Below are positions 1 through 42,078 of a DNA stretch of 51,129 nt, in pieces. Origin of the DNA: Paracoccaceae bacterium (GTDB lineage: Bacteria; Pseudomonadota; Alphaproteobacteria; Rhodobacterales; Rhodobacteraceae). The translations under genes were made by a program, and so were the position numbers. The stretch spans positions 1 to 51,129 of the forward strand of contig JAFIEE010000005.1 of NCBI GenBank assembly GCA_020832705.1. Direction: 5' to 3'. Below the pieces are notes generated by a model that did not search any database, was not told the origin of the DNA, and saw nothing but the letters and a program-made list of their open reading frames with translations. Each line of letters begins with the position of its first letter. The stretch's first letter is position 1.

Positions 1-49
1 GCGCCCTCGGGGCGTGCGGGGTGGGTGGGCGGGCGCGGCCCGAGGGCGC
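1..49. repeat. G-quadruplex repeat, copy A (window edge)
   Basis: The first 11 bases and bases 39-49 are perfect inverted copies (GCGCCCTCGGG / CCCGAGGGCGC). Between them, bases 18-33 read GGGGTGGGTGGGCGGG, a four-run G-quadruplex motif with single-base loops. About 32 bases (18-49) match, in inverted orientation and with two mismatches, the element at 39975-40015. It lies just downstream of the DMT transporter gene, so it may act in transcript ending. It may extend left beyond the window. Confidence 0.6.
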
Positions 50-91: not shown

Positions 92-1009
92 TCAGCGCGG
101 CGCGCGCGCCCATTGCACCGCAAGGATGCCGCCCATGATGACTGCCACGCCGATCAGGTCGAAGATCCCCAGCGCCTCGCCCAGCAGCGCCGCGGCGATG
201 GCAACGCCGAAGAACGGGTTGAGGAAATGGAAGGTCGCGGCCCGCACCGCCCCGATCCGGCCCACCAGGGCAAACCACACCCAGGTCGCCGCCAGCCCCG
301 GCACCAGCGTGGTGTATATGAAGGCCAGCACCAGCCGCCAGGACCAGGTGACCTCCCAGCTTTCCAGCGCCACCGCCGGCACCGCCAGCGCCGCGGCGCC
401 GATCAGCATCTGCAGCCCCACCACCATCAGCAGGTTCCCGCCCGTGGCCGAGGCCCCGCGCACCGCCAGCGTGGCCACGGTCAGCGCCCCCACGCCGATC
501 ACGCAGAGCGCCAGCCCGAAGCCGTCCACCCCGCCGCCCAGCCGCGCGCCCATGATCAGCGCGACCCCAGCGAATCCCGCCGTCAGCCCGCCGATGGCCA
601 GCGGGCGCAGCCGTTCGCCCAGCACCAGCCAGCTTGCCGCTGCCACCAGAAGCGGCATGGTCGAGGCGATGATGGCGGCCAGCGATGCCTCGATCGTCTG
701 CATGGCCACGAAATAGAGCCCGAGATAGAGCGCGTTCTGGCAGATGCCGAACACCGTTGTCGCGCGCCACTGCGCGCGGGTAAGCCCCCAGTCCTGGCCC
801 ATGGCGCGTGCGATGGCGATGCCGATCAGCCCCGAGATCAGGAACCGGATCGCCAGCGCCGTCAGCGGCGGCGCATCGATCACGATCATCCGTGCCGAGG
901 TGAAGGCCGAGGACCACATGAAGGCGAATGCGAGGCCCATGGCGATTGCGCGAATGTCCAAGCCTGCCTCCGGTGTCGTGGCTGCCCCTCCGGGTTCCGT
1001 TTCTGCCAT
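92..1009 (-). CDS. DMT superfamily transporter (EamA family)
   Basis: Predicted inner-membrane permease of the drug/metabolite transporter superfamily, 305 residues. It shows about ten hydrophobic segments arranged as two EamA repeats; the first begins near residue 20 (GLAFAFMWSSAFTSAR) and the second near residue 160. Substrate cannot be read from sequence; relatives export amino acids or other metabolites. The open frame extends upstream to 1147, but that N-terminus is rich in Arg and Pro and unlike a membrane protein. I chose the ATG at 1009, preceded by an AGGGG ribosome-binding site and followed by a short cytoplasmic tail. It is divergent from amn across a 140-bp gap. Its 3' end lies next to the G-quadruplex repeat at the window edge. 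Confidence 0.85.
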   Translation of the reverse strand: MAETEPGGAATTPEAGLDIRAIAMGLAFAFMWSSAFTSARMIVIDAPPLTALAIRFLISGLIGIAIARAMGQDWGLTRAQWRATTVFGICQNALYLGLYFVAMQTIEASLAAIIASTMPLLVAAASWLVLGERLRPLAIGGLTAGFAGVALIMGARLGGGVDGFGLALCVIGVGALTVATLAVRGASATGGNLLMVVGLQMLIGAAALAVPAVALESWEVTWSWRLVLAFIYTTLVPGLAATWVWFALVGRIGAVRAATFHFLNPFFGVAIAAALLGEALGIFDLIGVAVIMGGILAVQWARAPR

Positions 1010-1149
1010 AGCCCCTGGCCGGGGCAGGCGCCAGTCCCGGGGCGGTCCTGCGGGCTCTGTGCGGGCCAGCGCATGGCTTGCCAGCCCCCCGGCTTCGGTG
1101 GCAGGGTGACGCCCCGGCGCGCGCCGGACAACCCGTTGAAAGTGCACCC

Positions 1150-4591: not shown

Positions 4592-4653
4592 GGGGCGCTG
4601 TCCCCGTCGCCCCGTTGGGGCAACTCCCCCGGAGTATTTCTGGCAAGATGAAG
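4592..4653 (+). repeat. Three-hairpin intergenic repeat, copy 1
   Basis: Begins with a GGGG/CCCC hairpin, then GTCGCCCC-gtt-GGGGCAAC, then CTCCCCCGGAG followed by TATTTCTGGCAAGATGAAG. It lies between the ligase and aldehyde dehydrogenase genes. Copy 2 at 7229-7293 has the same order of parts. The middle stem differs in sequence in copy 2 but still pairs, so the structure seems to be kept. Confidence 0.65.
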
Positions 4654-38813: not shown

Positions 38814-39067
38814 TGCGTTCCGATCAGTGTTTCTCCCAGCGGCATAGGCAGGCCGCTTTGCGGGGTCAATGCGTCCCTCGCCGGATCAGGGGAGGGGCGT
38901 GGTTGCAGCGGCGACAGGTTGATGCGGAAGCGCAATAGTGCCACAAGGGCCGGGAGCAGGCGGTGCAGACGCATTATGCACCAGCCTTCTGCCCTGACAT
39001 TGCGCGCAGGTGCTGCCGGTCGCATTGGGCCGCTTTCCGCACTGCGCATGCTGGAGATTTGAAGACC

Positions 39068-39949
39068 GTGACTTTTCGCGCCTCGACCCCCATTCGCAAG
39101 GCGGTCTTTCCCGTTGCCGGGCTTGGCACCCGGTTTCTGCCCGCGACCAAGGCCATGCCCAAGGAACTGCTGCCGATCATCGACAAGCCGCTCATCCAGT
39201 ATGCCGTGGAAGAGGCGGTGGCGGCGGGCATCACCGACCTGATCTTCGTCACGGGGCGCACCAAGCGCGCGATCGAAGATCATTTCGACGCCAACCCCGA
39301 ACTGGAGCGCGCCCTGCGCGACAAGGGCAAGGACGATGTGGCCGACATGGTGCGCAACATCGTCCCCGAGGGCGTGCGCTGCATCTTCCTGCGCCAGCCC
39401 GAGGCGCTGGGGCTGGGCCATGCGGTGCTCTGTGCCGAACCGGCGGTGGGGCGCGAGCCCTTTGCGGTGCTGCTGGCCGATGACGTGATGCGGGGCGATC
39501 TGCCGACGCAGTGTCTGGTCAATGCCTATGCCGAGAAACCCGGCACGATCCTGAGCGTGATGGAAGTGGCGGCCACCGAGGCGCAGAAATACGGGGTTGT
39601 CCGGCCCGGCGCCGACGGCGCGGTGGCGGGACTGGTGGAAAAACCCGCACCGGGGACCGAGCCTTCGCGGCTGGCCTCCATCGGTCGTTATGTGCTGGAG
39701 CCCGAGATCTTCGAAATCCTGCACGCCCAGCCGCCCGGCCACGGTGGCGAGATCCAGTTGGCCGACGCGATCAACACCCGCGCCGCGCAGGGGCATGTGC
39801 GCAGCGTGGCGCTGAAGGGCCAGCGCTATGATTGCGGCTCCAAGATGGGGTATCTGGAGGCCGTGGTGGATTTCGCGCTGGAGCATCCGGACTATGCCGG
39901 GCGTTTCGCGGATTACATTGCGTCGAAAGCGGGTGGCGCGAAGCGGTGA
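39068..39949 (+). CDS. galU: UTP-glucose-1-phosphate uridylyltransferase
   Basis: Makes UDP-glucose from UTP and glucose 1-phosphate; 293 residues. The N-terminal nucleotide-binding signature is VAGLGTRFLPATKAMPKELL, followed by IDKPLIQYAVEEAVAAGI. LLADDVM, GEIQLADAI and YDCGSKMGYLEA complete the pattern. I chose the GTG at 39068 (MTFRASTPIRKAVFP), with GGAGA ten bases upstream. The frame is open to 38963, but that region is cysteine-rich and unlike the family. UDP-glucose is the substrate of the adjacent galE product. It is convergent with typA across the G-quadruplex repeat. Confidence 0.95.
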   Translation: MTFRASTPIRKAVFPVAGLGTRFLPATKAMPKELLPIIDKPLIQYAVEEAVAAGITDLIFVTGRTKRAIEDHFDANPELERALRDKGKDDVADMVRNIVPEGVRCIFLRQPEALGLGHAVLCAEPAVGREPFAVLLADDVMRGDLPTQCLVNAYAEKPGTILSVMEVAATEAQKYGVVRPGADGAVAGLVEKPAPGTEPSRLASIGRYVLEPEIFEILHAQPPGHGGEIQLADAINTRAAQGHVRSVALKGQRYDCGSKMGYLEAVVDFALEHPDYAGRFADYIASKAGGAKR

Positions 39950-39974
39950 GCGTCACGCTCTGATCAAGGGGGCA

Positions 39975-40015
39975 GCGCGCTCGGGCCGCGCCCACCCACC
40001 CACCCCTGCGGGCGC
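39975..40015. repeat. G-quadruplex repeat, copy B
   Basis: On the minus strand, 40006-39991 read GGGGTGGGTGGGTGGG, four G-runs with single-T loops. The flank on that strand, GGGCGCGGCCCGAGCGC-like, matches copy A at 18-49 with two mismatches over about 32 bases. It sits between convergent galU and typA. Confidence 0.75.
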
Positions 40016-40061
40016 CGTGCGGGCCGCCCGACGGGCGGCGGGCGGAAGGCGCCGGGTGCCG

Positions 40062-41882
40062 TCAGGCGCTGGCGCGAGCCTGGCGCTTGCGTTCGTGCGG
40101 GTCAAGGAAACGCTTGCGCAGGCGGATCGCCTTCGGCGTGACCTCGACCAGTTCATCGTCGTCGATATAGGCGATGGCCTGTTCCAGCGACATGATTGTC
40201 GGCGGGGTCAGCTTGACCGCATCATCCGAACCCGAGGCGCGGATGTTGGTCAGCTTCTTGCCCTTGAGCGGGTTCACTTCCAGATCGTTGTCGCGCGAGT
40301 GTTCGCCGATGATCATGCCCTGATAGACCGGGTCCTGCGGATTGATGAACATGCGCCCGCGCTCTTCGAGGTTCCACAGCGCATAGGCGACCGCAGTGCC
40401 GTCCTCCATCGAGATCAGCACCCCCTGGCGGCGGCCCGGGATCGTCCCCTTGTAGGGTGCCCAATCGTGGAACACCCGGTTCAGCACGCCGGTCCCGCGC
40501 GTGTCGGTCAGGAATTCGCCGTGATAGCCGATCAGCCCGCGCGAGGGCACATGCGCGACAATCCGGGTCTTGCCGGCGCCGGCGGGCTTCATCTCGACCA
40601 GTTCGCCGCGGCGCGGCCCGGTCAGTTTCTCGATCACCGCGCCCGTGAATTCGTCATCCACATCGATGGTGACTTCCTCGATCGGCTCCAGCTTCTGGCC
40701 GCCTTCATCCCGGGTCAGCACGCGGGGGCGGGAAATCGACAGCTCGAACCCTTCGCGGCGCATGTTCTCGATCAGCACGCCCATCTGCAACTCGCCCCGG
40801 CCCGCAACCTCGAAGGCCTCGCCGCCCGGCGTGTCGGTGACACGGATGGCGACGTTCAACTCGGCCTCTTTCATCAGCCGTTCGCGGATCACGCGGCTCT
40901 GCACCTTGGAACCGTCGCGCCCGGCCAGCGGGCTGTCGTTGATGCCAAAGGTCACGCTGATGGTCGGCGGGTCGATGGGCTGCGCGGGCAGCGGGGTTTC
41001 CACCGTCGGATCGCACAGCGTGTCGGCCACGGTGGCCTTGCTCATCCCTGCGAGGGTGACGATGTCGCCGGCCTCGGCCACCTCGATCGGCTGTTGCCCC
41101 AGCCCGCGAAAGGCCAGCACCTTGGTCACGCGGAATTGTTCAAGCCGTGCGCCGTCGCGCGACAGCGCCTTGAGCGTCTCGCCCGCCTTGAGCGTACCCG
41201 ATTCGACCCGGCCGGTCAGGATGCGACCCAGATACGGGTCGGCCGAAAGCGTGGTGGCGAGCATCCGGAAGGGTTCGCCACGTGCGGCCACCTGCGCGGG
41301 TGCGGGCACATGCGCGACGATCAGGTCGAACAGCGCGCGCATGTCCTTGCGCGGGCCGTCCAGATCGGTATCGGCCCAGCCATTGATGCCCGAGGCATAG
41401 AGCACCGGGAAATCGAGCTGATCGTCATCGGCGCCGAGGTTGGCGAACAGGTCGAACACCTCGTCCAGCGCGCGGTCAGGTTCGGCAGCGGGCTTGTCCA
41501 CCTTGTTGAGCACAACAATGGGCCGCAGCCCTAGCGCCAGTGCCTTCGATGTGACGAACTTGGTCTGCGGCATCGGCCCTTCGGCAGCATCGACCAGCAA
41601 CACCACACCATCGACCATTGACAGGATCCGTTCCACCTCGCCGCCGAAATCGGCGTGTCCCGGCGTGTCAACGATGTTGATGCGGGTGCCGCTCCATTCG
41701 ACCGAGGTGCATTTGGCCAGGATCGTGATCCCGCGCTCACGCTCGATATCGTTGCTGTCCATGGCGCGTTCGGCCACGGCCTGCCCGGCACGAAAGGCGC
41801 CGGATTGCTTCAGAAGCTCGTCCACCAGCGTGGTCTTGCCGTGGTCGACATGCGCGATGATCGCGATATTGCGAAGGTCCAT
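40062..41882 (-). CDS. typA: Ribosome-associated GTPase TypA/BipA
   Basis: Translational GTPase that binds the 70S ribosome and helps 50S assembly and stress adaptation; 606 residues. The G motifs are [15 protein letters not shown] (G1), GITILAK (G2), [11 protein letters not shown] (G3), NKVDKP (G4) and a G5 region near YASGINGWA. Domains II, III, V and the unique C-terminal domain follow, with [20 protein letters not shown] and [14 protein letters not shown] at the end. The frame is open to 42014; ATG 41882 gives the canonical [15 protein letters not shown] start. It is convergent with galU. A 238-bp gap upstream holds a strong stem-loop belonging to the DUF2189 gene. Confidence 0.97.
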
Positions 41883-42078
41883 GGAACTGTCCGTTGATGC
41901 TGCGCTGCGGCGCAATTGGGGCGCACATAGCAGTTTGCCGCCGTTCTGGCCAGCAGGAAGCGGCAGGGGCATGCCTGCCCCCGCCGCGCCATGTTGCCGG
42001 TGACGCAGCGTCATGCGCCACGTCGGATCATCCCCGCGCTGCCGGGCGATCAGGCGCCGGCGGGGCGCGCGGGGCGCT

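Follow-up and report, generated by a model that had tools for sequence, protein, structure and literature searches.

The window analysed here is a stretch of 51,129 nucleotides from a Paracoccaceae bacterium. It represents one complete contig of its genome (the "own genome", G000), and the first of the two G-quadruplex (G4) motifs that it harbors, termed copy A, thus sits at a contig end. The second, copy B, lies between two convergent open reading frames (ORFs), as the preliminary description had stated (Table 1). From their translations, we take the first of these ORFs to be galU and the second, on the G-strand side of copy B, to be typA. The ORF whose 3' end faces copy A resembles, in our reading, a membrane transporter. 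Both motifs were placed correctly in that description: GGGGTGGGTGGGTGGG on the minus strand and GGGGTGGGTGGGCGGG on the plus strand each display four runs of three G separated by one-base spacers. Allowing up to two mismatches, the motif is matched five times in the window, two of these matches overlapping at copy B, versus 0.49 expected in dinucleotide shuffles, and none of 100 shuffles reaches five.

Table 1. Features of the two G4 copies and of the neighbouring ORFs in the window
Feature	Position	Strand	Remark
Copy A hairpin	1..49	+	Left arm 1-17, G4 loop, right arm 33-49 (hairpin scan)
Copy A G4 motif (loop)	18..33	+	GGGGTGGGTGGGCGGG
ORF with 3' end facing copy A	92..1147	-	Presumed membrane transporter
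ORF, convergent neighbour of copy B	38963..39949	+	Presumed galU; true start may lie further in
Copy B element	39970..40029	-	Imperfect, bulged stem around the G4
Copy B G4 motif	39991..40006	-	GGGGTGGGTGGGTGGG
ORF, convergent neighbour of copy B (G-strand side)	40062..42014	-	Presumed typA; true start may lie further in

The flanks of the two motifs had been reported to match over about 16 bases, and the unit to be a 32-base sequence repeat. Only the 3' part of this match holds: GGGCGCGGCCCGAG follows both copies, whereas the 5' arm of copy B is different. The unit is instead a G4 loop carried by a hairpin, the stem of which varies and covaries. This hairpin nature, absent from the earlier reading, is the main feature of both copies. 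Copy A forms the loop of a near-perfect stem detected by a hairpin scan, its left arm being deprived of the outermost bases because the window starts at the contig end. Its predicted energy is -71.4 kcal/mol in a G4-aware fold versus -39.5 kcal/mol without the G4. The stem of copy B is bulged, with a 3' arm close to the family consensus and a 5' arm that differs from it; its minus strand (39960-40050) folds at -71.3 kcal/mol with the G4 versus -51.7 kcal/mol without.

Another motif, of the GGAGTATTTCTGGCAAGATGAAG type, recurs between genes of the window at 4635, 7273, and 26995, adjoining small hairpins. TATTT...CAAG motifs in loci of genomes G292 and G082 resemble it.

A covarying stem around a constant G4 loop

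The own genome (3.64 Mb in 272 contigs, 87% complete) contains 89 exact (GGGY)3GGG motifs, 40 forward and 49 reverse. Additional copies are thus present, and the repeat family suspected from the two copies of the window is borne out. A hairpin with paired flanks at -30 kcal/mol or better surrounds 83 of the 89, while in the remaining six (L030, L039, L053, L069, L075, and L091) one arm is truncated by a contig end. The element is composed of a GC-rich stem of ~15-20 bp and a loop, (G)GGGYGGGYGGGYGGG, of 15-17 nt. Among the 67 copies having enough flanking sequence, three stem families of 16, 20, and 10 members are observed, and 21 copies belong to none. These families are exemplified by AGCGCCCTCGGGGCGTGC[G4]GCGCGGCCCGAGGGCGCT and, with a tandem GA internal loop, by AGCGCCCCC-GA-AGCGC-CAT[G4]GCGCT-GA-GGGGGCGCT.

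Within the family Rhodobacteraceae, GGGTGGGYGGGYGGG is present in 75 of the 296 genomes scanned. The congener G002 harbors 124 copies; in the 396 kb examined, a hairpin is found at all 27 copies, and 25 of the 51 long hairpins carry such G4 loops. The stem consensus of G002 differs from the stem families of the own genome. For a wider comparison, 81 copies with flanks were collected from ten other genera, picked mainly for their high copy number. An energy and position criterion (-30 kcal/mol) is reached by 78 of these 81 copies, versus 263 of 810 pairs of arms combined across genera and 96 of 405 shuffled controls. Energy by itself discriminates poorly in such GC-rich DNA, however: the median of shuffled arms is already -28.0 kcal/mol. 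Counted from the loop, each position from 2 to 18 forms a Watson-Crick pair in 51 to 74 of the 81 copies, with several pair types per position; by position 21, pairing is no more frequent than expected. In 29 of the 81 copies, aligned with two rows misaligned by four columns and kept in, 85.4% of the positions are paired versus 52.9% after shuffling (0 of 500 shuffles as high), and the covariation score amounts to 0.743 versus 0.203 for shuffles and at most 0.213 for slid-structure controls. Stems are often unrelated in sequence within and between genomes, yet they pair, while the loop of four G-runs stays constant; this combination suggests that the hairpin shape itself is under selection. 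As the stem still pairs across eleven genera, that of the window included, in-cell folding can be tested in laboratory strains. Whereas most claims on bacterial G4s are motif counts, the motif is here tied to stem pairing that persists despite sequence change.

Two observations stand beside this set. At L212 2423, in G233, a hairpin loop contains only three G-runs (GGGGTGGGTGGGA); it is a possible variant, not able to form the same three-layer G4 alone. In the C3 stretch of G034, REP-like palindromes with CGTAGGGTGGGTT are found at offsets 116311, 300377, and 344019, separate from the G4-loop hairpins.

Outside the family, the motif is rare. It is found once each in five of 237 non-family genomes (of 241 in the class) and once each in four further genomes among 120 of the phylum; one more non-family genome, from a smaller sample, has two copies of a looser pattern. 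Identical motifs from outside the family or from viral contigs reach -30 kcal/mol at 3 of 23 sites, 14 of these 23 sites lying on viral contigs. The hairpin thus does not accompany this G4 in general, and its being a generic side effect of any G4 can be discarded. Judging from the genomes sampled, the structure appears restricted to the family.

Mismatches in the stems bear on the strand that folds. Written in G-strand letters, stems that are free of gaps and have 11 or more Watson-Crick pairs out of 17 (a subset of 68 of the 81 copies) hold 34 G.T versus 15 A.C mismatches, at a p of 0.009 that is optimistic because the copies are related. Stricter cuts yield G.T:A.C counts of 33:12 and 31:9, and G008 shows the opposite trend, with 3 G.T versus 7 A.C. 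The excess of G.T indicates that the G-strand is probably the folding strand. A G.A mismatch lies beside the loop in 45 of the 81 copies of the ten genera, and tandem GA/GA internal loops are found in own-genus copies; both point to the G-strand as well. An RNA of the C-strand as the folded form is disfavoured by the G.T excess and the G.A pairs, G008 being contrary.

Position at gene 3' ends and proposed function

All position counts rest on our own gene calls, made with a pooled codon model; an earlier caller had scored antisense ORFs of G034 as genes. Of the 89 copies of the own genome, 11 overlap a called gene. Among the 54 non-overlapping copies with both neighbours called, 32 lie in convergent gaps, 12 and 6 in the two tandem arrangements, and 4 in divergent gaps, in agreement with the intergenic siting near convergent gene ends put forward previously; the 12 are copies between two genes of the C-strand. 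In G002, 12 of 22 copies are in convergent gaps, against a background of 39 convergent among 193 gaps of at least 50 bases. Pooled counts from nine genomes give 164 genes next to the 3' side of the G-strand hairpin: 131 have their end facing it, 80 of these at most 60 bases from the G4, and 33 begin there. On the other (5') side, a G-strand gene ends towards the element in 91 cases, 15 of them within 60 bases. Median distances per genome range from 27 to 122 bases on the 3' side and from 84 to 382 bases on the other.

This arrangement calls to mind intrinsic (Rho-independent) terminators, which likewise have a GC-rich hairpin downstream of a stop codon and are often located in convergent gaps. 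The element differs from them by its 15-17 nt G4 loop and, usually, by the lack of a U-tract: at least four T are found past the stem in 11 of 67 copies of the own genome and in 2 of 26 copies of G002, and no T enrichment after the stem is seen in six other genomes. A canonical terminator is therefore rejected. Ordinary short-loop, A/T-flanked hairpins occur beside the G4-capped ones, and ordinary short-loop terminators are present in 5 of 18 element-holding gaps in G002, 1 of 8 in G034, and 0 of 8 in G082, counts that do not establish mutual exclusion between the two.

With a confidence somewhat short of even, we favour a reading in which both window copies belong to a class of G4-capped hairpins that fold on their G-rich strand and most likely serve as 3'-boundary elements. 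At gene ends, the capped hairpin would act as G-strand RNA or, for the gene of the opposite strand, as a fold in the template DNA. It would stop RNA polymerase, 3' exonucleases, or both, and a stop at the element would separate neighbouring, often convergent, genes. The sequences themselves establish the structure, its covariation, its restriction to the family among the genomes sampled, and its siting at gene 3' ends; G4 formation in the cell and the barrier function are what we infer. Were the cap such a barrier, it would offer a route to end transcripts or to protect 3' ends without a U-tract. A barrier alone, however, leaves unexplained the replichore polarity seen in other genera (see below). 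Also at odds with this reading are the 12 own copies flanked by C-strand genes on both sides, the 11 overlapping a called gene, the usual lack of a U-tract, and the orthologous pairs that have diverged (see below). A broader proposal, possible yet more doubtful, is that of an undescribed class: a parallel-G4-capped G-strand hairpin maintained by compensatory evolution, which would cap the 3' ends of transcripts or larger structured RNAs, would be recognized by a dedicated factor, and would be replication-oriented in several genera. A literature search, mostly among openly available papers, returned no description of such a G4-capped hairpin.

Extragenic palindromes and other known repeats

The element might also be a REP-like selfish or neutral palindrome spreading within each genome and settling harmlessly at gene 3' ends, an explanation that we hold for rather unlikely. 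REP elements of the GTAG/CGTC families are described as short extragenic palindromes occurring in many copies and in species-specific families (PMC3733652). The present element is likewise an extragenic palindrome in many copies, with stem families proper to the own genome and another consensus in G002, and convergent-gene gaps are tolerant sites. It differs from the REPs so described by its G4 loop and by the unrelated stems of its copies, a feature that copying alone does not produce. Moreover, the GTAG tag lies within 35 bases of only 3 of the 89 own copies, and CGTC, found anywhere within 35 bases of 24 of the 89, is at the chance level for such GC-rich sequence. The REP-associated Y1 transposase (PF01797) was not found in four of five genomes of the genus, including the 87% complete own genome, and G003 gives a weak match. 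A REP/RAYT element proper is rejected, given the 86 of 89 copies without GTAG and the missing PF01797 in the own genome.

Orthologous loci argue on both sides. In favour of such spread, turnover is seen at galU-typA: the copy is not conserved, G002 having one beside typA on the other strand and the stretches of G001 and G003 examined having none in this region. An alignment of seven orthologous pairs from the own genome and G001 shows divergence in four, including one that has lost its outer stem. The other three (L305/L005, L318/L012, and L317/L031) are nearly unchanged over the element, with 0, 1, and 1 differences, amid diverged flanks, which speaks against a freely spreading palindrome.

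Further known systems share single traits with the element. The dispersed intergenic G-rich repeats of Xanthomonas (GGGAATC) and Nostoc are G4-capable and lie near the 3' end of the neighbouring ORF, at an average of 28 nt in Xanthomonas (PMC4692102); they are head-to-tail simple repeats, whereas here a single G4 loop tops a covarying hairpin. BoxC/PIT intrastrand triplexes are also multi-copy, G/C-rich structured intergenic repeats, but they require a homopurine tract paired with a pyrimidine tract and, in addition, a third strand (PMC4666352), unlike the mixed-sequence stems observed here. The nasT G4 of Paracoccus denitrificans, another G4 in an alphaproteobacterium, occupies a promoter and has longer mixed loops, with no hairpin described in the portion of the article at hand (PMC5123632). 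Integron attC sites are rejected, their GTTRRRY / RYYYAAC boxes occurring in 1 of the 89 copies. Searching 27 loci against Rfam at a relaxed threshold yielded four weak matches, all below the gathering cut-off. A 6S RNA match at L155 2558-2714 (34.6 bits for a cut-off of 46.4) lies away from the element.

Possible larger RNAs and replichore polarity

In some genera, the hairpin belongs to a larger structure. In G008, a ~300-nt element present in 9 copies carries the hairpin close to its 3' end; this element harbors several covarying helices, with double changes at 25 of 66 predicted pairs, and has a G-strand gene upstream in 7 of the 9. G292 and G034 have another upstream part of ~200 nt in common (double changes at 21 of 84 pairs, 4 sequences), and most G082 copies display a CTCTTTCTTGG...AAATACTC motif upstream. 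In the own genus, a small companion hairpin shows compensatory changes in two of the three nearly unchanged pairs of the own genome and G001. These features would fit a larger structured non-coding RNA (or structured 3' UTR) read on the G-strand, with the hairpin as its 3'-terminal domain, of which the own genus would keep a shortened version made of one companion hairpin and the G4 hairpin. We nonetheless deem this explanation improbable. None of these upstream parts was recovered in own-genus copies: own and G002 copies share no common upstream part by BLAST beyond single chance-like pairs, and for model R1, built on the G008 first domain, the best E-value among 66 own-genus sources is 0.06. 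The G008 first domain, furthermore, also occurs without a G4 loop, at L258 and on a Pseudomonas putida plasmid.

At L258 (383-473, G034), the match to the first-domain model scores 44.7 bits; the hairpin that comes next has its G-runs in the stem, not in the loop. On the plasmid, pYQ39 (NC_005009; L319 386-442), the match to this domain is 84.5% over 58 bases and lies downstream of a higA antitoxin gene. A viral contig (L350 224-300) scores 38.7 bits. The plasmid collection gave no match for the own-genus or the G292 element, and one partial match for that of G008.

The strand of the copies follows the replichore in six genera other than that of the window. In G233, a single contig of 5.56 Mb, the G-strand is the leading-strand template in 25 of 27 copies, compared with a leading-strand share of 62.7% among the genes sampled (p 5e-4); origin and terminus were placed solely by GC skew in 20 samples, of which two do not fit their half. 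Adjacent copies lie on the same strand in 25/25 cases in G082, 9/9 in G247, 22/26 in G233, 25/32 in G034, 7/8 in G292, and 4/4 in G008 (p < 0.05 each). Gene orientation as the sole cause of this polarity is rejected, some G034 copies keeping their strand beside genes of either strand. The element could then be a replication-oriented site whose G-strand is kept on the leading-strand template, by a role there or by purging from the lagging-strand template. As an account of the window copies, this appears quite improbable: no such polarity between adjacent copies exists in the window's own genus (31/69 in G002 and 13/23 in the own genome), and G310, with 17/26, stays at p 0.09. If the cap is a barrier, as in the 3'-boundary reading that we favour, the replichore polarity of certain genera would tie the orientation of G4s to replication.

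Chance G-runs or an assembly artefact, suggested by the 22 of the 89 own copies that lie no more than 60 bases from a contig end (versus ~1 expected) and by some look-alikes that are G runs, are a negligible prospect given the covariation and the same structure in the single contig of G233 and in nine other genera. Assembly may break at the copies because they are short repeats or are poorly sequenced through the structure. At L019 (around 1501), L023, and L028, copies or look-alikes have loops that read as a G run, which may be dark-cycle miscalls made by two-colour sequencing where the polymerase stalled.
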